In this document: in pieces, positions 1 through 48,110 of the stretch
How positions within the stretch are numbered: position 1 is the stretch's first letter
Layout of the letters: each line of letters opens with the position of its first letter
Assembly: GCA_946186205.1 (NCBI GenBank)
Contig: CAMHMH010000002.1
Span: forward strand, 62,001 to 126,000
Direction of reading: 5' to 3'
Source of the DNA: an uncultured Fretibacterium sp.
GTDB taxonomy: Bacteria > Synergistota > Synergistia > Synergistales > Aminobacteriaceae
Length of the DNA stretch: 64,000 nt
The notes under the pieces: model-generated
The model's database searches: none
Told to the model about the DNA's origin: nothing
The model's input: only the letters and a program-made list of their open reading frames with translations
Position numbers and translations under genes: made by a program

Positions 1-715
1 CGTTTCTCGCGACAAGTTCGCCGTCAATGCACTCGATGATGTAAGTCTCCTTCTCGTCAGAAAGCATCCAGTGAAGCCCCCACCATGTGCCATAGCCGCC
101 GTAAATGTCCATATTCTTCAGCAGCTCCACACCATGCGCGGCGGATTTTGCGTGATCGAGAACGTAGCGTACTACTGCCATAGAATGAATGCGGGGTTTG
201 CCGTAATTGGTTGAGAGAAGAGTCGCGAAGTCCAGATCAACAGCAGGAGCAACGTTGCTGTTCATGGCCACGCCGTTTTCATTAATGCCGTCAAAAGTCA
301 TGTTTGGCAGTGCGAGCAAATCAGCTTCCGAAACTTTGTCGACCTGATTCGATTTCAGCGTGAGGATTGCGGCCATTCCTATGCTTGCGTAACGACCTTC
401 TTTTGCTGCAACCTTGATGACAAACTCAGGGACATCTGCATAATCAAGATCCAAATTGCGGCCGTAAAAATTTCCGTTGCGGACTGCCGAGCAAGCGAAG
501 CCCATTTTGACATTTTCGCCCGTCGTGAGGTCTGGCACATAGTCGGTGTATTCCATGTAGTAGAGGTAATCGGCCAGTTTTTTCGGAGCTGTGAAGGGAG
601 CTGCGCACGCCGTAACGGACAGCGCGAGAACGAGAAGCAATGCGCCCATAACGACACGTGCGCGGGATTGTGATTTTGATTTGTGCTGCATCGTACTAAC
701 TGTAGTTCCTTTCAT
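1..715 (-). CDS. Exported Ntn-type linear amide hydrolase (choloylglycine/C59-like), 3' end cut by window
   Basis: The readable part is 238 residues, and the C-terminus lies beyond base 1. A hydrophobic N-terminus ends in a lipobox-like VTAC, so the protein is probably an exported lipoprotein. After it comes FACSAVRNG followed by YGRNLDLDY, the arrangement around the nucleophile Cys in linear amide C-N hydrolases of the choloylglycine hydrolase/penicillin V acylase superfamily, which cut bile-salt, penicillin or N-acyl amides. A later stretch, MTFDGINENGVAMNSNV, also fits that family. The start is uncertain: ATG at 715 or ATG at 691, with no strong ribosome site at either. It follows the esterase at 750 on the same strand after 34 bp and so probably belongs to the exported hydrolase cluster. 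The substrate cannot be told from sequence. Confidence 0.75.
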   Translation of the reverse strand, partial: MKGTTVSTMQHKSKSQSRARVVMGALLLVLALSVTACAAPFTAPKKLADYLYYMEYTDYVPDLTTGENVKMGFACSAVRNGNFYGRNLDLDYADVPEFVIKVAAKEGRYASIGMAAILTLKSNQVDKVSEADLLALPNMTFDGINENGVAMNSNVAPAVDLDFATLLSTNYGKPRIHSMAVVRYVLDHAKSAAHGVELLKNMDIYGGYGTWWGLHWMLSDEKETYIIECIDGELVARN

Positions 716-749: not shown

Positions 750-2420
750 TTACAGGCAGAAATACTTTGTCAGGAAATAGCATCTGTCCCAGTCAAGAAT
801 TTTTCTCTGTGATTCTTTTTCCGGGTGAATGTTGAACTCATCGAAGACCATAATGCTCTTGTCCTTCAGGTCATACAGCGGCCATTCGTACGCTTTGCCG
901 TCGGGTGAGATGTCTGCACTGAGTGAGGGATTTCCGGTTTTCGCAAACTGAACCCACATCTTGCGCATGACCTTTGAGAATGTCTCATCGAATGCTCTTC
1001 CGGTGAACTGGGTATCTTCCGGGTGATTGAAGATTGTCGAAAGTTCTACAGCATGTCCGCTCTTCATCAATGGCACGGAGGATTCAACCGTGAAGTAATA
1101 ACTGTACGATTTTCCGCCGGCCTGAGCCTGATTCTCTGACAGTCTGAACATAGGCGCGATAAACCAGATTTGGTCGAAAAGTCGGCAGATTGGATCATAG
1201 CTCTCTCCCTTGATGTCATTGCAGAAACTCTCTACAAGTGCTTTTTCCTCATCCGTCAGCACGGTGAAATTCTTTGCTATGCGATTGTTTATCCATTTGG
1301 TGAAAGGCTCTACTCCTCCGGCTTCTACCATGAAGTAGTTCAGCTCGTCCTTGTTTACGCCCTGAAGAATTTCTATATCCTTAGCCGCTCCCTTTGCGTA
1401 ATCCTCATAAGGTGTAAGCGTCAAGTATTTTCCGTCTCTTTCAGGCCCTACGCACATTCCTCCGAGCGAGGCCATTGCTTTGACCATCTTCTTAGCGTCA
1501 ACTTTCTGAAGATCTGCGACGGTTTTGCAGCCGAGAATCTTCATCACTTCATTTGTTGTTTCGATGCATTGTTCAATTGATCTTGAGAGGACTGGTGAGC
1601 CGCTCTGAGCGATTACACGCTTGAAATACTTGTGTGAGCCTTCAATCAGCGGAAGCACTGTTACACTTTCACCGCCTGCTGACTCTCCGAAGAGTGTAAC
1701 GTTATCAGGATCTCCGCCGAATGCCGCAATATTCTCATGAATCCACTTTAACGCCATCATATGATCCATGATTGCCAAGTTCTGAGCGTCAGGATAATCC
1801 TTTCCGTCAGGAAGGTGGGACAGATGGAAGAAGCCGAATATGCCGACTCTGTACGCAATGGAAACGGCTATAATGTCGGGGTTTTCCCTGACTAAGTTGC
1901 CGCAATCGTACGTTGGATCGACAGTCCCGCCCAATTCATAACCGCCGCCGTGTATCCACACCATGACGGGCTTCTTCTCTGCAGAGGCTTCATCCGCTTT
2001 CCAGACGTTCAGATAAAGGCAGTCTTCTCCCTGGACATAAAGAGAACCGCCTTCTGAGATTGCCTCCATCTGATAGGGGCTTTTCCCGTTGTAATACGCC
2101 TCGTAGACTCCATCATCAGGAACGAAATCAACAGGAGCTTTCCAGCGGTATTCACCTACAGGCTGCTTGCCCACAAACGGAATCCCCTTATACGCTATGA
2201 CTCCGTTATCCTTCTTGCCGACGAACGTACCATTGACGCACTTAACCGCAAGCGACTTGTCATAATTCCCGTCTGTGATCTGCTTGTTCTCACCGTACTG
2301 AGACATTATGCTTGCTTTCAGTTCGCTCAGTGTTTCCTCTGCCTTTGCTGAAGTGCTGCCGTAAGTTACGAGACTGAACACCATCAGCGCGGCCAATGAG
2401 ATACTAATGACTTTCTTCAT
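750..2420 (-). CDS. Exported type-B carboxylesterase, copy 1
   Basis: This 556-residue alpha/beta hydrolase has a Sec signal peptide (cleavage after about residue 27, ...SAKA). The oxyanion-hole HGGG is at 157-160, the nucleophile elbow GESAGG at 245-250 (Ser247), the acid probably Glu359 in NKDEL, and the catalytic His probably His456 in SGHAVEL. Full catalytic residues and normal family length argue for an active esterase acting outside the cytoplasm on unknown carboxyl esters. A clear ribosome site (GGAGG, 10-base spacing) supports ATG at 2420. It lies 20 bp downstream of a second esterase and is one of four closely similar esterase domains in tandem, indicating local duplication. Confidence 0.92.
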   Translation of the reverse strand: MKKVISISLAALMVFSLVTYGSTSAKAEETLSELKASIMSQYGENKQITDGNYDKSLAVKCVNGTFVGKKDNGVIAYKGIPFVGKQPVGEYRWKAPVDFVPDDGVYEAYYNGKSPYQMEAISEGGSLYVQGEDCLYLNVWKADEASAEKKPVMVWIHGGGYELGGTVDPTYDCGNLVRENPDIIAVSIAYRVGIFGFFHLSHLPDGKDYPDAQNLAIMDHMMALKWIHENIAAFGGDPDNVTLFGESAGGESVTVLPLIEGSHKYFKRVIAQSGSPVLSRSIEQCIETTNEVMKILGCKTVADLQKVDAKKMVKAMASLGGMCVGPERDGKYLTLTPYEDYAKGAAKDIEILQGVNKDELNYFMVEAGGVEPFTKWINNRIAKNFTVLTDEEKALVESFCNDIKGESYDPICRLFDQIWFIAPMFRLSENQAQAGGKSYSYYFTVESSVPLMKSGHAVELSTIFNHPEDTQFTGRAFDETFSKVMRKMWVQFAKTGNPSLSADISPDGKAYEWPLYDLKDKSIMVFDEFNIHPEKESQRKILDWDRCYFLTKYFCL

Positions 2421-2439: not shown

Positions 2440-4113
2440 TTAGAATATGAAATACTTTGTCAGCGGGTATGTTCTCTCCCAGTCAACAATGCCGTAATCG
2501 CCTTCAATGCCCTGATGTATATTGAACTCATCAAACACCATAATCGGTTTTGTCTCGGAGTTATACATATCCCACTGTATTGCTTTCCCCGTGGGGGATT
2601 CTTCCGCTGTCAGTGAAGGATCGCCTTTCTTGGCGAAATTCACCCACATACGCTGCATTGTGTGATTGAAAGTGTCATCATAAGCCCTTCCCGAAAAGAA
2701 TGTGTCCTGAGGATTATTGAACACAACAGAGAGTTCTGCGGCATGGCCGGAAAGGAAATACGTTCTGGGAGTCTCAACCCTGAAATAGTAATGATACGTC
2801 CTGCCTCCTGCAGCGGTATGGTTCTCAGACATACGGAACGCATGAGCAATGAAAAGCACCTGATTTCCGAACTTGAAGACTTTGCGGAACTTATTCCCTA
2901 ATGTATTGTCCATAAACGCCTTCGCTTTTGCTACATCTTCAGGAGTCATTGTCTTGAATCTCTTCTCGTAGCGGGAGTTGTAGTATTCAGTGAAATCTTC
3001 TTTGCCCATAAAGTACGCAAACTGTCCCATTTCGTCCTTTGTGCAGCCCTCAAGAAGATCAATATCTTTGGCTTCTCCTTTGAGATATGCGTCATAGGGA
3101 TCTATAGGTATGAGCTTGCCGTCCCTTTCAGGCCAGTCCCGAAGCGACAGCAAATCCCCGGCTACATCGGCAATTTTCTCTGGCGGAAGTGCGAGAAGAT
3201 CGGCTACGGTTTTGCAGTTCAGAGCCTCAAGCAGCTCATTGGTTACTGCTATAGCCTCCTCTGTAGAGTGTGTGAACGCAGGCGACCCGCTTTGAGCAAT
3301 AACGCGGTGGAAGCAGCCTCTTGCCTCAGGTATGAGCGGAAGCAGCGAGACACTTGCACCGCCCGCAGATTCTCCGAATATTGTTACGTTATTGGGATCT
3401 CCGCCAAAGCCCGCAATGTTTTCATGAACCCACTTAAGTGCCATCACCTGATCCATAATGCCAAGATTCTGCGCGTCAGGATAATCCTTCCCGTCTGGCA
3501 AATGGGACAAGTGAATAAATCCCAATCCTCCAAGACGGTAAGCTATCGTTACAAGAATGACATCGCCGTTATCTTTCACGAAATTGAAGCCGTCATATAA
3601 TGGATTGATCGTGCTGCCCTGCGTGAAACCGCCGCCATGTATCCAGACCATAACCGGCTTGTTCTCTGAAACATCTGCTGCATTCTTCCACACATTAAGA
3701 TACAGGCAATCCTCGCCGAGTACAGCAAAAGCCCCCGCATCATCGTATGTTTCAGGCTGAAGGCTGCCCTTGGCGAAATGATATGCCTCGTATATGCCAT
3801 CATTCTTTCCGAACGGGACAGGCTTCTTAAACCTGTTTTTGCCTGTAGGCTGTTCACCGACAAACGGAATGCCCTTGTATGCTATTACGTTGCCTGTCTT
3901 CGTGCCGACAAATGTACCGTTGATACACTTGACTGCAAGCGACTTATCATAATTTCCGTCTGTGATGGGTTTGTTCTCGCCGTATCTGGCTCTCACTTCT
4001 GCTTTAAGCTCATTCAGTTTTTTGTCAGCCTCGTTTGCTGAACTGTTGCCGATGAAACTGAAAAACATCAGCGCAACAAGAAAGAGACTCAGCAATTTTG
4101 TGGAAATCTTCAT
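2440..4113 (-). CDS. Exported type-B carboxylesterase, copy 2
   Basis: This 557-residue protein has a signal peptide (about residues 1-27), HGGG at 159-162, GESAGG with Ser249, a likely acid Glu361 (TKDEM) and a likely His457 (SGHAAEL). It is the most diverged of the four local esterase domains: the region around 95-130 and the loop after Glu361 differ from the others, so its substrate may differ. The ribosome site AGGAGG lies 7 bases before the ATG. A terminator-like hairpin at 4136-4169 separates it from copy 3 upstream, so it may have its own promoter, and copy 1 follows 20 bp downstream. Confidence 0.92.
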   Translation of the reverse strand: MKISTKLLSLFLVALMFFSFIGNSSANEADKKLNELKAEVRARYGENKPITDGNYDKSLAVKCINGTFVGTKTGNVIAYKGIPFVGEQPTGKNRFKKPVPFGKNDGIYEAYHFAKGSLQPETYDDAGAFAVLGEDCLYLNVWKNAADVSENKPVMVWIHGGGFTQGSTINPLYDGFNFVKDNGDVILVTIAYRLGGLGFIHLSHLPDGKDYPDAQNLGIMDQVMALKWVHENIAGFGGDPNNVTIFGESAGGASVSLLPLIPEARGCFHRVIAQSGSPAFTHSTEEAIAVTNELLEALNCKTVADLLALPPEKIADVAGDLLSLRDWPERDGKLIPIDPYDAYLKGEAKDIDLLEGCTKDEMGQFAYFMGKEDFTEYYNSRYEKRFKTMTPEDVAKAKAFMDNTLGNKFRKVFKFGNQVLFIAHAFRMSENHTAAGGRTYHYYFRVETPRTYFLSGHAAELSVVFNNPQDTFFSGRAYDDTFNHTMQRMWVNFAKKGDPSLTAEESPTGKAIQWDMYNSETKPIMVFDEFNIHQGIEGDYGIVDWERTYPLTKYFIF

Positions 4114-4180: not shown

Positions 4181-5854
4181 CTACAGGCAATAATACTTTG
4201 TCAGGAAATAGCATCTGTCCCAATCAACGAGCTTCAGTTCAGACTCCTTTGACGGATGAATATTGAACTCGTCTAAGACCATAATGCTCTTGTTCTTCGA
4301 GTCGTAAAGAGGCCACTCATGAGCCTTGCCATCAGGGGAAATCTCTGCACTGAGAGACGGATTGCCAGTTTTCGCGAACTGCACCCACATCTTGCGCATA
4401 GTCTTCGAGAATGTCTCATCGAATGCTCTTCCGGATACGTAAGTCTCTTCAGGGCGATTGAAGATTGTCGAAATCTCTATAGCATGGCCGCTCTTTATCA
4501 ATGGCACGGAAGATTCAACTGTGAAGTAATAAGCGTACGACTTTCCTCCGGCCTGAGCCTGATTCTCCAAAACCCTGAACAGCGGGGCAAAAAACCAGAT
4601 TTGATTGTACAGCTTGCAAAGCGGTTCGTAGCTCTCTCCTTTGATGTCATTATAGTAGCTATCTACGAGTGCTTTCTCCTCGTCCGTCAGCTGATTTCTA
4701 TTCTCCGCCCATCGTTTGCCTTGCATCTCAACGAAAGAGTATCCTGCTTCTTCGGCAATAAACATAAAGTAGTTCGACTCGTCTTTGTTGCAGCCCTGAA
4801 GGAACTCTATATCCTTTGCAGCACCCTTCGCATAAGCCTCATAGGGATCAAGCGGCAAATACTTTCCGTCTTTTTCCGGCCCTATGTGCATATCTCCGAG
4901 CAGCTCTACTGCTAGAAGCAGCTTCTCAACGTCAACCTTCTGAAGATCAGCGACTGTCTTGCAGCCGAGCATCTCCATAACTTTATTCGTGTCCCCTATG
5001 GCCTGTTCTGGAGTTCTTGACAGGACTGGCGTGCCGCTCTGAGCAATGACTCTCCTGAAGTACTTATGTGAGCCTTCAATCAGCGGAATAGTGGTTACGC
5101 TGTCTCCTCCGGCAGACTCTCCCCAGATCGTAACGTTATCGGGATCGCCGCCAAAGTTAGCGATGTTCTCATGAATCCATTTGAGAGCCATCATCTGATC
5201 CATGAGGCCCAAATTCTGCGCGTCCGGGTAGTCTTTGCCGTCAGGAAGGTGAGACAGGTGCCAGAAACCGAACACTCCGAGCCTGTACGCAATGGAGACT
5301 AAGATAACATCAGGATTTTCTCTGACGAAATTAGTACCCTCTTCACGAGGTTCTACTGTTCCGCCGAATTCGAAAGCTCCGCCGTGTATCCAGACCATTA
5401 CAGGCTTCTTTGTTCCGCCGTTATCAGCTCTCCAGACGTTAAGATAGAGACAGTCTTCACCACTAACATAAAGTGAAGCAACTTGCGACCTGTCGTACGG
5501 CTGGCACGGGCTTTTCCCGTTGTAATACGCCTCGTAGACTCCATCATCAGGAACAAAGTCAACGGGAGCTTTCCAGCGATATTCACCTACCGGCTGTTTG
5601 CCCACAAACGGAATACCTTTGTACGCGATTACACCATCTCTCTTTTTGCCGACAAATGTACCATTGATACACTTTATCGCGAGGGACTTGTCATATTTGC
5701 CGTCAGTGATGGGCTTGTTCTCGCCGTATAAAGCTCTCATTTCCGCTTTGATCTCGTCCAGCGTTTTGTCAGCCGCTTGTGCTGAACTGCTGAAGGCCGT
5801 CAGAGCAGAAACTATTACGCCGATTACTGCCAATACAAAAACTTTCTTCTTCAT
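4181..5854 (-). CDS. Exported type-B carboxylesterase, copy 3
   Basis: The start is placed at ATG 5854 because it gives a typical signal peptide (MKKKVFVLAVIGVIVSAL..., cleavage after ...SAQA) and is preceded by AAAGGAA at good spacing; the frame stays open upstream but that part looks unlike protein. The 557-residue product has HGGA at the oxyanion site, GESAGG with Ser247, Glu359 (NKDES) and the SGHAIEIS histidine. It resembles the fused esterase domain and copy 1 more than copy 2. It is an exported alpha/beta hydrolase with unknown ester substrate, transcribed with the genes above and below. Confidence 0.92.
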   Translation of the reverse strand: MKKKVFVLAVIGVIVSALTAFSSSAQAADKTLDEIKAEMRALYGENKPITDGKYDKSLAIKCINGTFVGKKRDGVIAYKGIPFVGKQPVGEYRWKAPVDFVPDDGVYEAYYNGKSPCQPYDRSQVASLYVSGEDCLYLNVWRADNGGTKKPVMVWIHGGAFEFGGTVEPREEGTNFVRENPDVILVSIAYRLGVFGFWHLSHLPDGKDYPDAQNLGLMDQMMALKWIHENIANFGGDPDNVTIWGESAGGDSVTTIPLIEGSHKYFRRVIAQSGTPVLSRTPEQAIGDTNKVMEMLGCKTVADLQKVDVEKLLLAVELLGDMHIGPEKDGKYLPLDPYEAYAKGAAKDIEFLQGCNKDESNYFMFIAEEAGYSFVEMQGKRWAENRNQLTDEEKALVDSYYNDIKGESYEPLCKLYNQIWFFAPLFRVLENQAQAGGKSYAYYFTVESSVPLIKSGHAIEISTIFNRPEETYVSGRAFDETFSKTMRKMWVQFAKTGNPSLSAEISPDGKAHEWPLYDSKNKSIMVLDEFNIHPSKESELKLVDWDRCYFLTKYYCL

Positions 5855-5903: not shown

Positions 5904-8900
5904 TTACAGGCAATAATACTTTGTGAGGAAATAGCATCTCTCCCAGTCAAGAATTTTTCTCTCGGCTTCCTTCTCCGGGTGAATGTTGAACTCGTCAAAG
6001 ATCATTATTTCCCTGTCCTTCAAGTTGTACAATGGCCATTCGTGTGCTTTGCCGTCTGGGGAAATTTCCGCGCTGAGTGAAGGGTTGCCGGTCTTCGCGA
6101 ACTGCACCCACATTCTGCGCATGGTCTTTGAGAAGGTCTCATCGAATGCTCTTCCCGTCTCTAAGGTTTGTTCCGGGTTATTGAGTACTGACGCAAGCTC
6201 TACAGCATGTCCGCTCTTCATCAGCGGCACGGAGGATTCAACCGTGAATAAATAAGTGTAGGATTTACCTCCGGCTTTGGCTTGGTTCTCCGACATCCTG
6301 AACAGAGGCGCAATAAACCAGATTTGATCGTACAGTCTGCAAAGCGGCTCGTAAACATCTCCCTTGATGTCCTTGCAGAAGCTATCAACAAGTGATTTCT
6401 CCTCGTCCGTAAGCTGTGTGATACTTTTAGCCCAGCGTTTACTGTAGAACTCCATGAAAGGCTTTACTCCTCCGATGCCTACCATAAAGTAATTCAGCTC
6501 GTCTTTGTTGCAGCCCTGCATAATGTCTATATCCTTTGCCGCGCCGTTTGCATACGCTTCATACGGATCTAGGGGAAAATAAATTCCATCACGTTCCGGC
6601 AATACGCGCAGTCCGAGTACCGCTGCTTCCTTCACAAACTTATGGACATCTACCTTCTGGAGATCTGCTACAGTTTTGCAGCCAAGAATCTCCATCAATT
6701 CATTCGTACACTCGATAGCCTGTTCTGTTGACCTCGAGAAAACGATTCCGCCGCTCTGGGCAATGACTCTCTTGAAATACTTGTGTGAGCCTTTGATTAA
6801 CGGAAGCTGGCTGACACTGCCGCCGCCCGCTGATTCGCCGAAGATTGTTACGTTGTCGGGGTCTCCGCCGAAACTCGCAATGTTATCGTGTACCCATTTC
6901 AACGCCATAATCTGATCCATGAGTCCGAGATTCTGCGCGTCGGGGTAGTCCTTGCCGTCAGGAAGGTGGGACAAGTGGAAGAAACCGAACACTCCGACTC
7001 TGTACGCGATACTTACAGCGATTACATCAGGATTCTCCTTGACGAAGTTATGCAGCTCATACATAGGGTCAGCCGTTCCGCCCATCTCATAAGCTCCGCC
7101 GTGTATCCATACCATTACAGGCTTTTTCTCTGAAGAGACTTCATCAGCTTTCCACACGTTAAGATACAGGCAGTCCTCGCCCTGAACGTAAAGGGAAGCA
7201 CCTTCATATAGATCTTCACCCTGTACAGGAGTTTTCCCGTTGTAATAGGCCTCGTACACACCGTCATCAGGGACAACATCAACAGGAGCTTTCCAGCGAA
7301 ATTTTCCTACAGGCTGCTCACCGACAAAAGGAATACCCTTGTACGAGATTACGCCGTCATTCTTTTTGCCGACAAACGTACCGTTCACACACTTGACTGC
7401 TAACGACTTGTCATAGTTGCCGCCGGTTATCTTCTTGTTCTCGCCATATTGCGCTCTGAGTTCCTCTTTAGCCTCTTCAAGTGTTTCCTGAGCTGTGAAG
7501 ACCTTTTCACCCTCGAAGTATGTTGCCTTGGGCCGGGCGGAATGAATCTCCATAACCGGGCAAGTCAATACGTCTTTGTTCAGCAGAAGGAAGTCCGCAT
7601 ACTTTCCGGGCTTAATGCTTCCACGCTCATCCTCGATAAACATCTGCCGGGCACAGCCGATTGTCATTGCGTTTAATGCCTGCTCACGAGTCACAAGCTC
7701 TTCAGGCCACCAAGGAGTCCCGTTCTCGGAATGAAGCACTCCCGTAACAGCAATCTCCATAATTCCGAATGGGTCATCAGGGCTTCCGCTCAACGCCGGG
7801 TAATCTGAATGTATTGACACAGGAATCCCATTGTCGAAGAATGACTTGAACGGATAAGATTTGTCCTCTTGTCCTATGGGAGTCGACTTATGCTCACGGA
7901 GATATTCAGCCATTCCGGCCGGGCCATGATGCCACGTAACGCCCGATGTAACATAAATGTTGTTGTCCTTCATGCGCTTGTAATCTTCTGGGTTTACGTT
8001 GCGGACATGTACGAGAGTGTTGCGCATCTCATCTTTTCCGCCGTTCACGTAAGCACTTACGACACAATTCACGGCCTTGTTGCCTAATGCGTGTATGTGC
8101 ATCGTCAGACCGTTCGCGTTGGCTTTGCGCGTGATCTCTGTGATTTCTTCCTCTGTCCAGTTGGGTATACCTTGATGTCCGTCGGGGTATAACGGATCTA
8201 CAAATCCCGTGCCAGTCTCTACAGTTCCATCCATGAGCAGCTTTATCCATCGCGGCATTACGTGTTTTGAGGCAAATTTCTTTGCGTCAGCTGCCCGCGC
8301 TAATCCCTCATCAATATCCATCCAGCTTTCAATCTCATACGGGAGTCCAAGAACAAAATGAAGTTTTCCGGCCTCGTCAAGCTTCTGCGCTGCCTTGTAG
8401 TAATTTGTGTTGACGAAATAATTTCCCCAGCCTTCATGGTACATCGTGTAGCCTGATGACAGCATGTGCCGCTGAATGTCAGCAAGATTCGCTTCAGCCA
8501 TGTCGAGCGTATAGAGGTTGTCATTGTCAAGGAAGGAACGCACGTAAGTCTGAGCCTGTTCCGACAAAAAGCCTGTAGGGATTCCGTTTGCGTCTGTCTG
8601 AATCTCGCCGCCCCGTATTTCTGTCTTGAGCGGTGTACCGTCCGCGCTCATTATTCCCGCATGAACAAGCATTAATGTGTTAGTCAAAGCCTTGTGGCAT
8701 TCGTCATCCAAAAAGTACATGGGAATATCACTGCATACCGCGTCTAATTCCTGTCGTGTAGGAATATGATTCCCAAAGTGCATGAGACTCCAGCCCTGAC
8801 CAAATACAGCCGTTGAGCCTGAGTCTCTTGCTTTCTTGACGGCGGCAGGGAGAATTTCTGTCATGAACTTTTTCGAGTCATCCTCATATCCTATTGTCGT

Positions 8901-9221
8901 CCCGATCGTCTTCAGCGCGTAACCAAGCATATAATGTGCATGGCCGTTGCCGCACCCGGGCATTACGAGTCCTTTGCCGGTGTAGTCAACAATTTCTGTC
9001 TTGCCTGACTCGATGAATGACTCCGCGCCTTTCTTGTCGCCGACGTAGATATACTTTCCATCTTTGACCGCAAACGCTTCAACAATCTGATTGCCTTCTG
9101 ACGCGAATATCTTGCCATAGACAACGAGGTCTGCTGACTCTTGCGCTGAAGTTAAAGCCGCTAGACTTACAACAGCAAGCACAGCCAGCAATGCACTAAA
9201 TACTTTCTTAGAGATACTCAT
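5904..9221 (-). CDS. Bifunctional exported amidohydrolase-carboxylesterase fusion
   Basis: A single 1105-residue frame joins two whole enzymes. Residues 1-26 form a signal peptide. Residues about 30-575 are a YtcJ-type metal-dependent amidohydrolase: HAH at 94-96 for metal binding, MHIHALGNK near 374-382, a VHVRN segment near 404, and SIHSDYPAL near 469. From residue 576 (AQETLEEAKEEL...) the sequence matches the mature part of the neighbouring esterases, starting exactly where their signal peptides end, with HGGA, GESAGG (Ser797), Glu908 and His1004 intact. The ribosome site AGGAGG precedes the ATG by 7 bases. The stand-alone amidohydrolase next door ends with the same residues as the first half (EGEKVF), so the fusion removed only a stop codon and a signal peptide. 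Both halves look active; substrates are unknown. Confidence 0.9.
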   Translation of the reverse strand: MSISKKVFSALLAVLAVVSLAALTSAQESADLVVYGKIFASEGNQIVEAFAVKDGKYIYVGDKKGAESFIESGKTEIVDYTGKGLVMPGCGNGHAHYMLGYALKTIGTTIGYEDDSKKFMTEILPAAVKKARDSGSTAVFGQGWSLMHFGNHIPTRQELDAVCSDIPMYFLDDECHKALTNTLMLVHAGIMSADGTPLKTEIRGGEIQTDANGIPTGFLSEQAQTYVRSFLDNDNLYTLDMAEANLADIQRHMLSSGYTMYHEGWGNYFVNTNYYKAAQKLDEAGKLHFVLGLPYEIESWMDIDEGLARAADAKKFASKHVMPRWIKLLMDGTVETGTGFVDPLYPDGHQGIPNWTEEEITEITRKANANGLTMHIHALGNKAVNCVVSAYVNGGKDEMRNTLVHVRNVNPEDYKRMKDNNIYVTSGVTWHHGPAGMAEYLREHKSTPIGQEDKSYPFKSFFDNGIPVSIHSDYPALSGSPDDPFGIMEIAVTGVLHSENGTPWWPEELVTREQALNAMTIGCARQMFIEDERGSIKPGKYADFLLLNKDVLTCPVMEIHSARPKATYFEGEKVFTAQETLEEAKEELRAQYGENKKITGGNYDKSLAVKCVNGTFVGKKNDGVISYKGIPFVGEQPVGKFRWKAPVDVVPDDGVYEAYYNGKTPVQGEDLYEGASLYVQGEDCLYLNVWKADEVSSEKKPVMVWIHGGAYEMGGTADPMYELHNFVKENPDVIAVSIAYRVGVFGFFHLSHLPDGKDYPDAQNLGLMDQIMALKWVHDNIASFGGDPDNVTIFGESAGGGSVSQLPLIKGSHKYFKRVIAQSGGIVFSRSTEQAIECTNELMEILGCKTVADLQKVDVHKFVKEAAVLGLRVLPERDGIYFPLDPYEAYANGAAKDIDIMQGCNKDELNYFMVGIGGVKPFMEFYSKRWAKSITQLTDEEKSLVDSFCKDIKGDVYEPLCRLYDQIWFIAPLFRMSENQAKAGGKSYTYLFTVESSVPLMKSGHAVELASVLNNPEQTLETGRAFDETFSKTMRRMWVQFAKTGNPSLSAEISPDGKAHEWPLYNLKDREIMIFDEFNIHPEKEAERKILDWERCYFLTKYYCL

Positions 9222-9322: not shown

Positions 9323-11068
9323 CTACCTTGCGAAAACCTTTTCTCCCTCAAAGTATGTCGCTTCGGGTCTTGCTGTGTGAATTTCTGTTACCGGGCAGGT
9401 GAGTACGTCTTTGTCTACAAGTATGAAGTCTGCGTACTTTCCTGCTTTGATGCTTCCTCTTTCGTCCTCAATGAACATCTGCTTTGCACAGTTGATAGTC
9501 ATGGCCGTTAATGCCTGCTCACGAGTCACAAGCTCTTCAGGCCACCAGGAAGTCCCCTTCTCAAGATGATATACACCAGTCAAAGCAATCTCCATAACGC
9601 CGAAAGGATCATCGGGGCTGTTGCTCAACGCGGGGTAGTCCGTGTGAAATGATACAGGTATCCCGTAATCAAAAAATGATTTCATGGGATAACCTTTGTC
9701 GGCCATGCTCGCAGGAAGAATAGTCTTCAGCTCCTCGGCTGTCGCGTCAGTGTTGTGATGCCAGAGCATTCCCGATGTAACGTAGATGTTGTTATCGGCC
9801 ATTCGTTTGTAGTCAGGCTCGATTACGTTGCGGATGTGCACGATCGTGTTGCGCATTTCAGGTTTGCCGCCGTTGATGTATGCGTTTACGACTCTGTTGA
9901 CTCCCTTGTTGCCGAGCGCGTGAATGTGCATGATTAATCCGTTAGCGTTGGCCTTGCGCGTTATGTCGGTGATCTCTTCTTCTGTCCAGTTGACGATTCC
10001 CTGATGCCCGTCAGGATATTCAGGCTCAATGAATCCCGTTCCGCTTTCTACAGTGCCGTCCATGAACAGCTTGATCCAGTAGGGTTTTACGTGCAGGGAA
10101 GCGAACTTCTTTGCAGCTATAGCTTTCTCAAGAACTGCGTCAAGATTCATCCAGCTGTCAATCTCGTAGCTGAAGCCCAAAATGAATTTCAGTTTGCCGG
10201 CCTTCTCCATCTGACTGGCTGCCTGATAGTAAGTATCATTGAAGAAGTATGACGAATAACCATCAAGATACATTGTGTAGCCTTCCGACAAAATAAGCTC
10301 CTGAATTTTTTCGAGGCTTGCTTTTGCCATGTCAACAGAAAAGAGAGCTTCATTGTCAAGGAATGAACGAACGTAAGTTGATGCCTGCTCCGAAAGAAAA
10401 CCTGTAGGCGTTCCGTCTGAACCCATAGCAATCTCGCCGCCGCGTATGTCATTGCCCTTTTTGAGAACAGTACCGTCCGCGCTCATTATGCCAGCATTGA
10501 CAAGCGCAATTGTGTTTACGAGACTCTTGTGATTCTCCTCGTCAGCAAAATACATAGGAATATCGCTGCAAATTTCATCAAGCTGCTGTCGTGTAGGCAT
10601 GTTGTTCTTGAAGGTCTGAAACTCCCAGCCCATTCCGTAAACGGCTTTCGCTTTTGTCTCTCTTGCCTTCCTGGCTGTTGCGGGGACGATCTCCTTCAGA
10701 AATTTTTCTACAGTATCTTCAAAGGCTATCATTGTCCCGAATGACTGAACAGCAAACGCTGAGAGATAATGCGAGTGTCCGTTGCCGCAACCGGGCATCA
10801 CGAGTCCTTTTCCCGTGTAATCGATAACTTCAGTCTTGCCTTTCTCAATGAACGATTCGACTCCCTTCTTGTCGCCCACGTAAATATATTTGCCGTCCTT
10901 CACAGCAAACGCTTCTGCAATCTCGCTGCCTTCTGACGTGAAAATTTTGCCGCAGACTACGAGGTCAGCAAATGTTTTGTCAGACTCTTGTGCCCAAGTG
11001 CAGGCGGAGAAATTCACAAGCACAAAGACAGCCACGAAGAGACTGAACGATTTCTTAAAACTCTTCAA
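9323..11068 (-). CDS. Exported YtcJ-type amidohydrolase
   Basis: This 581-residue paralogue of the first half of the fusion protein has HSH metal ligands at 98-100, MHIHALGNKG, a VHIRN segment, FHTDYPAL, and the closing amidohydrolase composite-domain motif DERGSIKAGKYADF. The family hydrolyses amide or related C-N bonds with one or two metal ions; the substrate is not known here. The N-terminus is hydrophobic with a possible lipobox (FSAC), so it may be a lipoprotein or be cleaved after TWA. The start is TTG at 11068, preceded by AGGAGG with 8-base spacing. A terminator-like hairpin follows it. Confidence 0.9.
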   Translation of the reverse strand: MKSFKKSFSLFVAVFVLVNFSACTWAQESDKTFADLVVCGKIFTSEGSEIAEAFAVKDGKYIYVGDKKGVESFIEKGKTEVIDYTGKGLVMPGCGNGHSHYLSAFAVQSFGTMIAFEDTVEKFLKEIVPATARKARETKAKAVYGMGWEFQTFKNNMPTRQQLDEICSDIPMYFADEENHKSLVNTIALVNAGIMSADGTVLKKGNDIRGGEIAMGSDGTPTGFLSEQASTYVRSFLDNEALFSVDMAKASLEKIQELILSEGYTMYLDGYSSYFFNDTYYQAASQMEKAGKLKFILGFSYEIDSWMNLDAVLEKAIAAKKFASLHVKPYWIKLFMDGTVESGTGFIEPEYPDGHQGIVNWTEEEITDITRKANANGLIMHIHALGNKGVNRVVNAYINGGKPEMRNTIVHIRNVIEPDYKRMADNNIYVTSGMLWHHNTDATAEELKTILPASMADKGYPMKSFFDYGIPVSFHTDYPALSNSPDDPFGVMEIALTGVYHLEKGTSWWPEELVTREQALTAMTINCAKQMFIEDERGSIKAGKYADFILVDKDVLTCPVTEIHTARPEATYFEGEKVFAR

Positions 11069-41103: not shown

Positions 41104-41258
41104 AATTGAATCTCTCCTTTTGAGTCTGAAAAAAAATTTTTGGATGTGAATAATTATACAGTGAATTGAATTTTTTGGCCTGAATGTGTGAACGTGATAA
41201 AATTCCCGCAATCCCAAAAAAGAATCCAGAGTCAAAAATTGAAGAAGGAGATGTGAAT

Positions 41259-44200
41259 ATGCACAGGAAGATTTGTACCTTCATTGCTGTGATGGCGTTC
41301 GTGATTCTGAGTGCGGGCTGTGCGTTTGGAGTGGAAATAAACGAGGAGAATTTTCCGGATCCTGCATTGCGAGAATTTGTCAAGCAGTATGACATAGGAG
41401 AACGGCGCGTAGAAGGTTCACCGCTTAGGCTAGGAGAGAAAGACGGCATATTGAGTAGCGTAGAATTATCATGGGTTACAGGTATGAATGCTCCCGGAAC
41501 AAATCTGAAAGGTATAGAGCACTTCACGGCTCTGGATACCTTTGGCTGTCGCAACAATGGGGTTACAGAACTTGATGTAAGCTCTTTTAGCCGTCTAGGG
41601 CTGTTAAACTGCGACTTCAATAAACTCAAAAAATTAAATGTGAGCAATAATCCTGCCTTATATCATCTTCACTGCCTCGACAATCAAATTGAAGCATTGG
41701 ATGTGAGTCATAATCCTGAATTAATTGAGCTGATGTGCAACAACAACCCTATTGGCAAACTTGACGTGAGCAATAATCTCAAGTTAGAGATTCTTGTCTG
41801 TGGCAGTACTGATCTTAGGGAGCTTGATGTTACTAACAATCTTTATTTAACCAGGCTTGACTGCTATAACAACCACCTGACCGAATTAGACCTCAGCAAG
41901 AACACCGCCCTTACTGAAGTGCTTCTCGGAGTTCAGGAAGCTGACGGCCTCAAAGTCAAAGCAGTCCCGGAAGGCTATGAAGTCTGCCTGAATGATTATG
42001 TGTCGGACGTAAACAACATAGACATATTCAGGGTAGGAGCAAACGATTATTCCATGAGGTTCACAAAGTACAGCAATGAAAACGGAAAAGCCACAGTGAT
42101 TTTCCCTGAGCCTCCCAAGACCTTGCATTACTTCTACGATACCCGCTCCCCGAACAATGACCAGCTTTATGTTGTCATTAAGCGTTCACTCAACGTTGAC
42201 GTTATCGAGCGCGGAGGCCCTAAAGACAACATCATATTCGGAGTAAAAGATAACTGCTATCTTGATGAGAACGATAAAGCCATTACTGAAAAATCAATCG
42301 CGGATCTATCAGCAAAAATATACGGCAAGAAGGGATTTGTTGCTGACGGAAATTCACGGCTCATCGTCAGGGTGAAAACTGAAAGGCCGGGAAATGTCGA
42401 GTTTTCGGTGAAGGAGAATATCGGCGTTGAAATCGAAAGGCTTTCAGACCGCGCAAAAGTTTCCAGCATTCACACGACAGACATCGGCGGAGAAGAGCAT
42501 CAGGCTTCAGCGGTTCTCGTTGCTCCTGAGATGTACCCTGTAGGAATATTTCCGTCTCAGGATTTTACGGTTCATGTGAAATTTACAGCAGATGAAACAG
42601 AAGAAGAGACACCTGAAGATGAAAAGGTCGCGGAGAACGATATAGAGCTTGAGATTCATGCCGCACCTGTTGTGCTGTTGCATGGCTTCTCAGGTGGCGC
42701 GAACGCTGAAAGCACATTCGGAATCAACGAGAACATAGGAGTTTACCGCAAGCTGAAGGACGCGAAATTCAACGTGTCATGGTGGAATTATGACGGCACA
42801 AAAGGCCCCTCCGTGTTGCTCAGAAATGACTACAACGGGCTGTTCTCAACACTCGTGCTTGCCTTCGAGGAGTACAGGAAAAAGGGAATAGTATGCACAA
42901 AGGCTGATATTGTCGGTTACAGCATGGGCGGACTTGTGGCGCGTTATTTCTGTCTTCCGCAGCAGGCTTCGTTTGACGGTAACTATTACACGTTCAGATC
43001 CTACAAACAAGGAATGGTCAGGAGAATTATTGATATTGCCGTGCCGAATAAGGGCAGCCCTTGGGCAAGCTATTTCTGCAAAGATTTCAGTGTAATCAAC
43101 ACTAACATAAACTTTCTGGCCATGTCCGTATCAGGGTGGTTAATGATTGCCGAGCCTGTAATCAAAAAGGCTGTCGAGCAATTCATGAACGGCGGAAGGA
43201 ACTCTGACTCAGCGTGGGAGGATATGGCTATCAACAGTGCTGTTACTGGCGGCGCATATCCTGTGAATGTGCCTATGTATTCTATATATGGGCAGATTAA
43301 GCAGGACATTGACAAATTCATGAAGACGTATGACTATATCACATTCCTAAATACTGCCGGTAAATACGCTGTAAAATATTCAAAGACAGATGAGTACATA
43401 GACTATCTCGACAAATTCAAGGACAACCTTGACCTTTCTGACAAAAGCCTTGCTTTGTTCTCCGACATCGCGCCGGTTCACCCCCTGTTTACGTCAGTTC
43501 TTCAGGCAGTGCAGCTTGCGCTTTCGACATCTCCGGCCGGGATCGTGAAGAGCATAGCCGAACAGCTTCCCACTGTCATCAATGAAGCATTTTTCGCGAA
43601 TGATGAACATGATTTGTGCGTCTCCCAAAACAGCGCGGCCGGTGATTTTTCAGGTGCGTCATCAGCCAAGACAGGATTATTCCAGTACAACCACCTCGCA
43701 ATATGCAAACAAAATGACATAGGCAATGACATTGTATCAAAGCTGAAAGGCTCTAAAAGCGCGTTCAAAGTTTTCGGCAAATTGTCATCATCAAGCCCCA
43801 CCCTGCCGTTAGCAAAATCTCCTATTCCTTCTGATACGGGTAATGACGGAGAATATGACCCTGATACAACTTACGCGGAAAATTTCAAGATTCAGCTTGA
43901 GCCGGCGACGTTGAATGTGAAGGCCGGAAATGCAACACTCAAGATAAAGGCCACGTCCAGCAAAAAAATAATCGATGGCGCGAATGTCTATATAGTCATT
44001 CAGAAAGACGGCCTTGACAGGATTTTGACAGCTTACGGCACAGACGGAAAGAACTTCACTAAATCGATTGAGTTCACTTCCGCTGATGCTGGTTCGGCAA
44101 AAGTTTACTGTTTCAGTTACGGTGAAGGGCAACAGCTTTACATCTCCAACAAAGTACAACTCGCCATAAAAGCCAACGCTAACGATTCAGACATTGAGGA

Positions 44201-47200
44201 GCTTTATTTTGCCGGGGACAGCGGGGTCATGTTTGCGGAATCAGGCTCAGATATACCAGCCGGGCTTTATGCACGCACAAAAGACGGCTTTGCGTTCGAC
44301 GTATCATCGCCCCTCATGGGCACATCTTGGACATCAAGCAACCCTTCAGTAGCTTACGTGAGCAGCGACGGAATGATTCACTCTCTTGCGGACGGAAGCG
44401 CAACACTCACAGCCTCATACGCAGGACTCACCGCAAGCATCATCGTCAACGTCGGCAACAATTTCTCAGCACCCGAAATCACCTCGCAGGCTCTTGACGG
44501 AGGCAATGTCGGCAAGAATTACACAGCACAGCTTCAAGCATCAGGCACTCCGTTAATCTCATGGCGAATCATTGAAGGCCGACTCCCCTTCGACCTGACA
44601 CTCAGCGACTCAGGCATGATTTCAGGATACCCATCTGAGGAAGGCACCTTCACTTTCACCGCTGAAGCCTCGAACATTTTCGGAACAGACTCGAAAGACT
44701 TCACGATCACTGTCGGCAATGCAGCAGGAGCAGCTGTCACGATTGACGCAAATAATTTCCCAGATGACAGCTTCAGGGCTTTCATCTCGGACAATCTCGA
44801 CTGGAATCATGACGGCTTGCTCACCGAGCAGGAAATCATCGGTGTTACTGCTATCGATGTCAGCAATATGGGCATTAAGAGTCTCAAAGGCATTGAGTAC
44901 TTCACAGCCCTCGTATATCTCACATGCACTAACAACGAGCTTGCAGAGTTAGACCTCTCGAAGAACGTGAACATTTACGGAGTCGCAAGCCAGAACAACA
45001 AGCTCGAAAGCATTAACCTCGCTAACTGCTTGAAGCTCTTCCAGATTTGGCTCGACAACAACAAGCTGTCTTCCCTCGACTTTGCAGACTGCCACGCGCT
45101 TAACATACTAAGCTGCAAGAATAATCTGATAACGACTCTCGACCTCAGAAGGCAGGCAAATATTACTGACCTTCAATGCGATGAAGGAGTCGAGATTCGT
45201 TACAGCGATACGCCGGGAGGCTCTGAGATTCTCATTGACGCAAACAATTTCCCGGATGATGCTTTCAGGAAGTTCATTGTTGACAATTTCGACTGGGACA
45301 AAAGCTCAAGCCTCAGCGATTCAGAGATTGCCGCGATAACAGGTATTAAGGCCGTCAATATGGGCATCAAGAGTCTTAAGGGCATTGAACATTTCACGGC
45401 TCTTGAGTATCTTACGTGCGCTGATAACGAGTTGGAAGAAATAGACCTCAGCGGGAATCCGAATTTTATCGGGCTCGCAGCAAACAATAACAAGCTCAAA
45501 CGAGTCAACGTCAGCAATAATCCGAAACTCTATCAAATCTGGGTCAACAACAACAAACTAACCGCGCTGGATTTCTCTCATAATCCCGAACTCGCAATAA
45601 TCGACTGCAGCAAGAACTTTCTGACGGAGCTTGATATTTCGGAAAACGCCAACCTCCGCGAGCTTTATTTCGTGAATTACCCGGATGAAGGCTCAGAAGA
45701 TGTTGACTATCATACGCTTCAGGGCAACGCAATTCGCAATATCGACTTGAGCGGCGCGACTCTTCTTACTCATATTGCCTGCTCAGCAAACGGAATCGAA
45801 ACGCTCGACTTGTCAAACAATCCTCTGCTCGAACATATCGAATGCCACAATAATTATCTGACGCAGATTGACACATCTATTTTCACGGAGCTGAAGTATC
45901 TTCATGTCGGCGGGAACAAGCTCAGCACACTTAATGTGAGTCAGAATCTGAAACTTCAGGAGCTTTTCTGCGGTGATAATCTTCTTGAGACTCTCACTCT
46001 CGGAGACAAGCCGGAAATGTTCAGGCTTCATTGCTGGGGGAATAATCTTCAGTCATTGAATCTCACGGAATGCACCGCGCTTCAGGAACTTCATTTCAGC
46101 TCAAACAAAATAAGCGCGGCTGATCTCACGAACTGCAAAGAACTTGTTTCACTCGACTGCGGGAACAATCTTCTTGAGACTCTGACACTTGGCGACAAAC
46201 CCGGGCTGCTCAAGCTCTACTGTTACCGCAACAATCTCAAAGAATTAAATCTCAAAGGATGCCCGGCCCTTAAGGAGCTTAGTTTCGGCGCAAACAAAAT
46301 CAGCGCGGTTGATATTACACACTGCAAGGAACTTGAGTCGCTCGCTTTCTGGGACAATCTCGTTACGGAGCTGGACATTTCAGAGCACGTCAAACTAAAG
46401 GATTGTATTTTCGGCAACAACAGGGTAAAGACTCTCAATGTCGGAAACAAGCCCGAACTGCTCAGGCTTCATTGTTACAGCAATGACCTTTCAGCTATAG
46501 ATGTAACAGGATGCCCGGTGCTTCAGGATTTCAGCTGCGAAGGGAACAAAATCAGCGTCCTTGACGTAACAAAATGCAAAGAACTTGAGTCGCTGTACTG
46601 CAAAGATAACCTTCTCAAAGTGTTAGACCTCAGCGAATGCCCGAAAATTACGACGCTGACTGTTGACGAGGGTGTCAAGCTCATCTACACTCACGAAGAA
46701 ACGCCGCCTGAAATTTTGACCGAGACTCTCACGAACGCCGCAACGAATCAGCCCTACTCATTACAGCTCACAGCTTCAGGGGCGAATCCGCTCACTTGGA
46801 CTCTCAGCGGAAAACTGCCAGCAGGACTCTCACTCAGCGAGGCAGGACTCATCTCAGGAACTCCCACCAAAGCCGGCAAATATTCTTTCACCGTTACTGC
46901 TGAAAACTCTTACGGCAAAACCTCAAAGCCTTTCACGCTTGAAGCATTTGACCCCGTCAGCATAACTACAGCAAGCCTTAAGGCAGGGACAATCACAAAG
47001 TCTTACAGCGTAACAATGAGGGCGAAAGGCACTAAGGCTATTACATGGTCAGCAGAAGGACTCCCGAACGGACTCACTATTAACGCAAACGGGAAAATTT
47101 CAGGCAAGCCGTCAGAGTATGGAGTGTTCGATGTGAAACTCAAAGCTGAAAACGGAGCAGGCATCACCGAGAAAACATTACAGCTTGAGATAAAAGCAAT

Positions 47201-48110
47201 TCCGCCGACACTTTCAGGGACTCTCGCGAAACCGACTCTTAACGTTCCTTACTCTTCAGGGCTTAAGCTCTCAAAAGGAAGCACGCCGGTAACATGGAGC
47301 GTTGAAGGAAATTTGCCCGGCGGACTCTCTCTCGACCCTAACACGGGAATCATCAGCGGGACTCCAACGTCATACGATAAATCAGGCTACAAGGTAACAA
47401 TAACGGCCTCTAATGACGCGGGTATAAAGTCAAAGAAAATCACCCTCAAAGTCAAAGGCACTGCACCCAAAATCACAGCGAAATTGCCGCAAGCTACAGC
47501 GGGTGAAACTTACAGCGCGGAACTTTCAGCAACAGGAAGCGAGCCTATTACTTTTAACGCTGAACTTCCTGAATATCTCACACTTGACGGCAGCACTATA
47601 AGCGGCGCTGTTCCCGATTCGGTCAGGAGCTTCAAGATAAAAGCATACGCATCGAACCCGGTCAAAAAGAACGTCAAGAAGAGCTACACAATCAGAGTCA
47701 GCGCAAAGAAATCTCTTCCGCAAAATCAAAACGCTGATAACGGCACGGACATCACAGAAGTCAGCAAGGGAGTCGATTCTGAAGTCATCGTTAACGTTCC
47801 AGACCCCACAGAAAACATAGTGCACTTATATTCCGAAAGCTATGTGATAGTCGCGGAGCTTGGTGAGATTTCCTGCGACATGGCCGGGATTTATGACTTT
47901 GAGATTGAAATACCTGATTGTCAACTTGAAGGATCAGAATTAGTTTACATTGCAAATTCTGACTCACCTTCTGAAGATGACGAGATCGCAGAATTTTATG
48001 ATGATGAATGGAACGAGATCTCAGAAATTCCTGAGAGTCGCAAAATTACCGTGTCAATCTGGCTCAATCCCGGAAGAATCTACATGCCGGTTATAGCAGT
48101 GAAGCATTAA
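41259..48110 (+). CDS. Giant secreted LRR / lipase-like / Ig-repeat surface protein
   Basis: This protein of about 2283 residues starts at ATG 41259 after AAGGAGATG, with a lipoprotein-type signal (LSAGC). Residues 24-240 are leucine-rich repeats (ELDVSNN-type, 21-22 residues) capped by NFPDPALREFV. Residues 465-870 form an alpha/beta hydrolase with VVLLHGFSGG, nucleophile GYSMGG near 551 and a late His region. A BIG2-like domain (about 1000-1064) and a putative-Ig (He_PIG) domain (1070-1157) follow, then two LRR blocks whose caps contain EF-hand-like Ca sites (DWNHDGLLTEQE, DWDKSSSLSDSE), then three or four more He_PIG repeats (about 1813-2150) and an acidic C-terminus. No membrane anchor or Synerg-CTERM is seen. 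An exported esterase/lipase held on a binding scaffold is likely. Confidence 0.88.
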   Translation: MHRKICTFIAVMAFVILSAGCAFGVEINEENFPDPALREFVKQYDIGERRVEGSPLRLGEKDGILSSVELSWVTGMNAPGTNLKGIEHFTALDTFGCRNNGVTELDVSSFSRLGLLNCDFNKLKKLNVSNNPALYHLHCLDNQIEALDVSHNPELIELMCNNNPIGKLDVSNNLKLEILVCGSTDLRELDVTNNLYLTRLDCYNNHLTELDLSKNTALTEVLLGVQEADGLKVKAVPEGYEVCLNDYVSDVNNIDIFRVGANDYSMRFTKYSNENGKATVIFPEPPKTLHYFYDTRSPNNDQLYVVIKRSLNVDVIERGGPKDNIIFGVKDNCYLDENDKAITEKSIADLSAKIYGKKGFVADGNSRLIVRVKTERPGNVEFSVKENIGVEIERLSDRAKVSSIHTTDIGGEEHQASAVLVAPEMYPVGIFPSQDFTVHVKFTADETEEETPEDEKVAENDIELEIHAAPVVLLHGFSGGANAESTFGINENIGVYRKLKDAKFNVSWWNYDGTKGPSVLLRNDYNGLFSTLVLAFEEYRKKGIVCTKADIVGYSMGGLVARYFCLPQQASFDGNYYTFRSYKQGMVRRIIDIAVPNKGSPWASYFCKDFSVINTNINFLAMSVSGWLMIAEPVIKKAVEQFMNGGRNSDSAWEDMAINSAVTGGAYPVNVPMYSIYGQIKQDIDKFMKTYDYITFLNTAGKYAVKYSKTDEYIDYLDKFKDNLDLSDKSLALFSDIAPVHPLFTSVLQAVQLALSTSPAGIVKSIAEQLPTVINEAFFANDEHDLCVSQNSAAGDFSGASSAKTGLFQYNHLAICKQNDIGNDIVSKLKGSKSAFKVFGKLSSSSPTLPLAKSPIPSDTGNDGEYDPDTTYAENFKIQLEPATLNVKAGNATLKIKATSSKKIIDGANVYIVIQKDGLDRILTAYGTDGKNFTKSIEFTSADAGSAKVYCFSYGEGQQLYISNKVQLAIKANANDSDIEELYFAGDSGVMFAESGSDIPAGLYARTKDGFAFDVSSPLMGTSWTSSNPSVAYVSSDGMIHSLADGSATLTASYAGLTASIIVNVGNNFSAPEITSQALDGGNVGKNYTAQLQASGTPLISWRIIEGRLPFDLTLSDSGMISGYPSEEGTFTFTAEASNIFGTDSKDFTITVGNAAGAAVTIDANNFPDDSFRAFISDNLDWNHDGLLTEQEIIGVTAIDVSNMGIKSLKGIEYFTALVYLTCTNNELAELDLSKNVNIYGVASQNNKLESINLANCLKLFQIWLDNNKLSSLDFADCHALNILSCKNNLITTLDLRRQANITDLQCDEGVEIRYSDTPGGSEILIDANNFPDDAFRKFIVDNFDWDKSSSLSDSEIAAITGIKAVNMGIKSLKGIEHFTALEYLTCADNELEEIDLSGNPNFIGLAANNNKLKRVNVSNNPKLYQIWVNNNKLTALDFSHNPELAIIDCSKNFLTELDISENANLRELYFVNYPDEGSEDVDYHTLQGNAIRNIDLSGATLLTHIACSANGIETLDLSNNPLLEHIECHNNYLTQIDTSIFTELKYLHVGGNKLSTLNVSQNLKLQELFCGDNLLETLTLGDKPEMFRLHCWGNNLQSLNLTECTALQELHFSSNKISAADLTNCKELVSLDCGNNLLETLTLGDKPGLLKLYCYRNNLKELNLKGCPALKELSFGANKISAVDITHCKELESLAFWDNLVTELDISEHVKLKDCIFGNNRVKTLNVGNKPELLRLHCYSNDLSAIDVTGCPVLQDFSCEGNKISVLDVTKCKELESLYCKDNLLKVLDLSECPKITTLTVDEGVKLIYTHEETPPEILTETLTNAATNQPYSLQLTASGANPLTWTLSGKLPAGLSLSEAGLISGTPTKAGKYSFTVTAENSYGKTSKPFTLEAFDPVSITTASLKAGTITKSYSVTMRAKGTKAITWSAEGLPNGLTINANGKISGKPSEYGVFDVKLKAENGAGITEKTLQLEIKAIPPTLSGTLAKPTLNVPYSSGLKLSKGSTPVTWSVEGNLPGGLSLDPNTGIISGTPTSYDKSGYKVTITASNDAGIKSKKITLKVKGTAPKITAKLPQATAGETYSAELSATGSEPITFNAELPEYLTLDGSTISGAVPDSVRSFKIKAYASNPVKKNVKKSYTIRVSAKKSLPQNQNADNGTDITEVSKGVDSEVIVNVPDPTENIVHLYSESYVIVAELGEISCDMAGIYDFEIEIPDCQLEGSELVYIANSDSPSEDDEIAEFYDDEWNEISEIPESRKITVSIWLNPGRIYMPVIAVKH

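Follow-up and report, generated by a model that had tools for sequence, protein, structure and literature searches.

The locus studied here raises the question of whether two exported hydrolases of different families are truly carried on one protein chain and, if so, how such a chain arose and what it might do. The window (the whole stretch of 64,000 nucleotides analysed, part of contig C2) contains a frame of 1105 codons without internal stop, opened by an ATG with AGGAGG ahead of it (Table 1). Pfam profiles placed Amidohydro_3 (PF07969) at residues 79-575 (profile positions 4-472 of 472; 190.9 bits against a cut-off of 29.7) and COesterase (PF00135) at residues 609-1076 (302.4 bits, far over the cut-off). 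The initial annotation had described an in-frame fusion of two complete enzymes, and this description is borne out by the single stop-free frame, the whole-domain Pfam matches and the conservation of the chain in seven species. The joint, which had been placed near window position 7496 with the mature N-terminus of an esterase at the end of the amidohydrolase (AH), was indeed located at residue 575/576: the stand-alone AH neighbour ends in ...YFEGEKVFAR, the fused chain reads ...YFEGEKVF/TAQETLEEAKEELRAQYGEN, and a neighbouring esterase (CE) shows AEETLSELKASIMSQYGEN immediately past its signal peptide. The signal peptide of the fused protein has no lipobox cysteine in the window copy.

Table 1. 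Positions of the fused gene, its parts and the neighbouring hydrolase genes (window numbering unless stated otherwise; a slash marks the cleavage site)
Feature	Position	Strand	Length	Basis
Fused gene: signal peptide, Amidohydro_3, linker, COesterase	5904..9221	minus	1105 aa	
Sec-type signal peptide, residues 1-26 (MSISKKVFSALLAVLAVVSLAALTSA/QES)	9144..9221	minus		sequence; cleavage site by eye
Amidohydrolase (AH) half, residues 27-575	7497..9143	minus		Pfam, invariant columns
Joint/linker, residues 576-604, 29 residues, equal to the CE mature N-terminus	7410..7496	minus		
Carboxylesterase (CE) half, residues 605-1105	5907..7409	minus		Pfam, triad
Stand-alone exported amidohydrolase, AH clade different from that of the fused AH	9323..11068	minus		
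Stand-alone exported carboxylesterase, ATG at 5854	4181..5854	minus		
Stand-alone exported carboxylesterase, divergent clade	2440..4113	minus		
Stand-alone exported carboxylesterase	750..2420	minus		
CBAH/linear amide C-N hydrolase, lipobox-like N-terminus, extends past the window edge	1..691	minus		
DUF3089 esterase after CBAH, outside the window	genome C2:60669-61271			

The joint might be thought to result from an error in the reads or in the assembly, since the named fusion-carrying relatives derive from metagenome assemblies, in which tandem CEs that are 65-80% identical are prone to be mis-assembled. A further contig (C10) is a reverse repeat of C2:1-68872 (100% identical over the last 18.9 kb and 99.9% over the first 12 kb, the parts that were compared) and begins inside the fused gene, at about window position 6872. 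We took C10 as assembly redundancy and not as a second genomic copy, given this identity, and its start within the fused gene as a sign of a region that is hard to assemble; other species nevertheless bear out the joint itself. The genus, a member of the Synergistaceae, accounts for 43 of the 188 Synergistota genomes searched; seven of these 43 carry the AH-CE chain, and none of the 145 others does. The six further species are G010, G011, G032, G017, G004 and G027 (identities to the window protein of 95, 89, 81, 80, 73 and 72%); the named records among them stem from different projects, and several are metagenomes of the goat or sheep forestomach. When the window was compared with its two nearest relatives, dN/dS was 0.04-0.07 for the AH half, 0.03-0.15 for the linker and 0.10-0.12 for the CE half, far below 1 across the joint, which indicates strong purifying selection on all three parts and, with the recurrence in seven species and the open frame, rules out a missed stop or frameshift at the joint. 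Because AH and CE are not homologous, a chimera driven by homology would not be expected to join them. An assembly artefact, i.e., chimeric contigs joined across similar tandem genes, is therefore very improbable.

Two other long frames were considered as AH-CE fusions and rejected: for the 1218-aa frame (G131) AH and CE proved to be separate frames, and for the 1128-aa frame (G045) only a 558-aa AH was seen. Among 72,556 plasmids no match to the architecture covered 80% of the query, and no relative was found in viral contigs. In the fused frame, ATG is missing from the codons between residues 557 and 703, and no GTG or TTG at the joint follows a Shine-Dalgarno sequence, so that an esterase made separately from an internal start appears unlikely. 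A promoter and terminator scan gave results at chance level.

The fused gene is part of a same-strand array in the order AH, AH-CE, CE, CE, CE, CBAH and DUF3089, whose hydrolases open with signal peptides, with lipobox-like ends in some relatives. Further downstream, past a large frame without assigned function, a partial AcrB-type efflux gene follows on the same strand. Transporters and regulators neighbour the array in part of the loci only and are too scattered to name a substrate. Elsewhere in the window (41184-48110) a 2308-aa protein was noted that combines leucine-rich repeats with four putative Ig domains and matches class-2 lipase weakly.

With regard to the origin of the chain, the initial annotation held that only a stop codon and a second signal peptide had been removed. 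The layout agrees with this, but the implied parentage does not, since the CE half falls into a paralog clade different from that of the other CEs of the window and the AH half is no recent copy of the AH neighbour; the CE paralog clades and the AH tree rule out recently duplicated copies of the window's own AH and CE as the parents. The AH tree unites the seven AH-CE proteins and an eighth fused AH (G009) in a single ortholog group, which also takes in the unfused AHs from G026 and G019 and a Prevotella sequence; a single clade of the eight fused AHs is compatible with the data (AU p=0.117), and one of the seven AH-CE proteins without G009 is rejected (AU p=0.0009). The CE halves, however, split into four clades: clade a contains those of the window, G010 and G011 plus one unfused CE (G026); clade b that of G032 plus unfused CEs from G026 and G032; clade c that of G017 plus unfused CEs from G032, G019, G027, G004 and G001; and clade d those of G027 and G004 plus the CE of a CBAH-CE fusion (G014) and one unfused CE (G019). 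A single origin of the seven CE halves is rejected (AU p=0.003), as are the pairwise joins a+b (3e-5), a+c (5e-52) and b+c (8e-7), although the p-values of these clade tests are somewhat optimistic because the groups were named after a first tree had been seen.

The joints differ in sequence (KVF/TAQETLEEAK, KVF/TAPDSDKTLNEAK, KVF/EAARSAQTLDEIK, KVF/EAPSTDKTMSELK, KVF/SSEEQGGNDALAKAK and KVF/EVENRKITG), and all of them set the CE mature N-terminus directly at the AH end. The one event joining one gene pair that had been proposed is contradicted by these findings, as the partner of the same AH differs between species, being DUF3089 or a CE from one of four paralog clades. The changing CE clades and differing joints suggest instead that the AH underwent several separate fusions, or that it was fused once at an early stage and its CE was later exchanged with tandem CEs lying downstream, and the trees are compatible with both. 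CE identity follows the assigned clade over most of the length, with patches that resemble gene conversion. Synonymous divergence from the window was lower in CE than in AH (0.21 vs 0.43 for G010; 0.45 vs 1.55 for G011), a two- to three-fold difference of the kind expected from gene conversion between CE copies. In G032, broken AH pieces in several frames lie immediately upstream of the fused gene (L040:9974-11259), a decaying AH copy.

A survey of the relatives with profiles for AH, CE, DUF3089 and CBAH revealed that the same modules are joined in several other ways. Besides AH-CE (six species, including the window), it recovered DUF3089-AH-CE (1405 aa, G004), DUF3089-AH (906 aa, G001; joint as in G004), AH-DUF3089-DUF3089 (1209 aa, G009, the eighth species, whose AH has two DUF3089 esterases as partner), CE-DUF3089 (885 aa, G011), CBAH-CE (915 aa, G014), double DUF3089 (G017 and G034), triple DUF3089 (G027) and, in another family of the order, AH-DUF3089 (875 aa, G109); most of the architectures other than AH-CE were seen in a single assembly, and DUF3089-AH in two. 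The more distant esterases and DUF3089 proteins included LRR-CE chains (G005 and G022). Some further chains were noted among them: CE-DctP (G030, L249:2719-5772), in which an enzyme and a transporter-binding part (the TRAP solute-binding domain) share one chain; FMN_bind-CE-DctP with an additional N-terminal FMN_bind (G019, L250:3025-6249); DUF3089 in one frame with alpha-acetolactate decarboxylase, in a single assembly (G038, L245:1288-3021); and CBAH-DUF3089 in another genus of the family (G049, L257:1291-3291), with a candidate frame of similar length in G137 (L258).

Counting neighbouring same-strand genes less than 500 bp apart, we obtained 17 fused joints vs 47 unfused adjacent pairs in the Synergistota loci, and 0 fused vs 124 unfused pairs in 70 loci of other taxa (Prevotella, Selenomonadales, Lachnospiraceae, Oribacterium isolates and others), a comparison that is descriptive, with no formal test, because the loci were picked by similarity to the fused protein. 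This ranking would, however, have favoured any close AH-CE fusion outside the Synergistota. The many kinds of fusion within one genus are the outcome expected from a high rate of deletion or recombination, and fusions might then be neutral by-products of deletion between crowded same-strand neighbours, persisting without any gain from the joining. We regard this as unlikely, for dN/dS is low at the joint and linker, which are preserved among proteins of 72-95% identity, both domains remain complete at the joints, and the 124 neighbouring pairs of the other taxa have remained without fusion.

Both active sites retain all the expected catalytic residues. In the AH half, the predicted metal ligands H94, H96, K327, H377, H405 and D473, and likewise E174 and E335, are invariant in all 34 aligned rows, and an auxiliary H176 is also present. 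In the CE half, which carries a GESAG elbow and an HGG oxyanion hole at 707-709, S797, E908, H1005, G708 and G709 are invariant in 29 of 29 aligned rows; of the triad given in the initial annotation, Ser797 and Glu908 are thus correct, but the histidine is residue 1005 and not 1004. Sequence identifies the AH half as a YtcJ-type amidohydrolase whose predicted ligands are those of a binuclear metal site containing a carboxylated lysine, and the CE half as a type-B serine carboxylesterase. An AlphaFold model built from 57 window and locus sequences contained folded material in both halves (overall pLDDT 74, pTM 0.50), with no confident structure in the joint region (564-617, pLDDT below 50); the model is shallow and the mutual orientation of the halves in it unreliable. 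The esterase half resembled type-B carboxylesterases (Foldseek E 1e-30; structure alignment Z 34, rmsd 3.1-3.5 A across about 450 residues), the aligned structures being esterase chains only, so that these values concern the CE half alone. The nearest solved AH-type relatives, found by a sequence search with the stand-alone neighbour AH as query, are the uncharacterised 3icj and 3igh.

Taken together, the chain is probably a bifunctional amidase/esterase of the periplasm and one of the products to which hydrolase arrays have given rise through repeated fusion or partner exchange, by removal of stop and signal peptide. The modules of the array have been fused repeatedly within the genus, C-terminus to mature N-terminus and separated by 0 to about 30 residues, a geometry in which the inner signal peptide is lost and the outer one kept, and a single Sec signal would then export both enzymes together. 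Judging from the signal peptides, they act more probably in the periplasm of a diderm than outside the cell. The AH half would cut amide bonds by means of two metal ions and a carboxylated lysine, and the CE half ester bonds by its serine triad; targets may be small acyl or aryl conjugates derived from plants or the diet. Rumen Synergistota are amino-acid fermenters and known plant-toxin degraders (PMC12366334), and enzymes that free acids, amines or amino acids from amide- and ester-linked conjugates would be in keeping with this. Changes of the CE partner may arise from the tandem homologous CE genes that adjoin the fused gene, by fresh fusions or by partner exchange.

The initial annotation had suggested a dedicated bifunctional enzyme, for which one substrate would carry an amide and an ester and be processed by the two halves in sequence. 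The intact active sites and the occurrence of the fusion in seven species are in line with such an enzyme, as is the adjacency of AH and CE genes in other rumen phyla (20 AH-then-CE and 23 CE-then-AH pairs). However, the CE partner was drawn from four paralog clades, DUF3089 took its place once, and the AH is unfused in G026 and G019; this turnover of partners weakens the idea that one dedicated substrate is processed in order, an idea we consider improbable. Since AH orthologs occur with several types of CE, with DUF3089, or alone, the benefit of the proposed amidase/esterase would more likely lie in keeping the two activities close together, in equal amounts and exported in one step, than in the channelling of one dedicated intermediate. 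As relatives have joined the same AH to several partner enzymes, these chains appear to reflect a repeated mixing of enzyme parts and no one-off accident. More tentatively, rumen Synergistaceae might possess a combinatorial 'plug-in' scheme, in which exported modules (AH, CE, DUF3089 and CBAH, and the TRAP solute-binding domain in more distant esterases) stand in tandem arrays and are repeatedly fused and re-partnered into species-specific multi-hydrolases for amide and ester conjugates of the feed; this is possible, if somewhat less likely than not to hold in full.

Large tandem AH/CE arrays were also observed in Prevotella, Selenomonadales, Lachnospiraceae and others (L044-L116), their nearest members being 63-79% identical to those of the window. 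The AH and CE trees mix phyla, which suggests gene transfer of these families in the rumen. The findings also point to a hydrolase repertoire common to Synergistota, Bacteroidota and Bacillota, with plant conjugates or toxins perhaps as substrates. Close species provide a natural series, in which one enzyme stands alone, is fused to four esterase paralogs, or is fused to another hydrolase family, and the value of fusion and of partner choice can therefore be tested directly on matched natural constructs.

Among known systems, the AH half is most readily compared with the secreted YtcJ-type Amidohydro_3 of Bilophila (metalloBSH), which hydrolyses bile salts as amide conjugates (PMC13081902); it belongs to the same Pfam family, has the same six metal ligands and is likewise exported. 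MetalloBSHs can also stand in tandem and bear an extra C-terminal domain (PMC13081902), but the C-terminal part of the fused protein is a second enzyme. Furthermore, of the residues named as binding the taurine sulfonate (Ser194, Gln381, Asn443 and His544), the first three correspond by motif alignment to E174, E335 and L379 in the AH half; the glutamates E174 and E335 at these positions speak against taurine conjugates and would favour an amide substrate that is uncharged or cationic. The CE half shares its fold, its Ser-Glu-His triad and about 30% identity with type-B carboxylesterases (p-nitrobenzyl esterase, Est55 and the PU-degrading esterase 8wdm), but unlike these it sits behind an amidohydrolase and belongs to a rumen clade found as tandem arrays. 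COesterase and DUF3089 (family XV) genes occur together on bovine rumen fosmids (lip1-lip6; also Est10), and DUF3089 enzymes and a COesterase from such tandem genes are active esterases (PMC4464377, PMC4431682). The two esterase families are thus the same as here, but they are encoded there by separate genes and with no reported amidohydrolase fusion. Several catalytic domains per exported chain are likewise present in the multi-catalytic-domain hydrolases of rumen bacteria, e.g., xylanase-feruloyl esterases, whose targets are polysaccharides. We found no description of Amidohydro_3 and COesterase in one chain in the open-access literature, and we know of none for the combination of AH, CE, DUF3089 and CBAH with changing partners. 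Multi-domain hydrolase fusions are a known kind of protein, and what the present locus adds to them is the Amidohydro_3 plus COesterase architecture and its repeated re-partnering.
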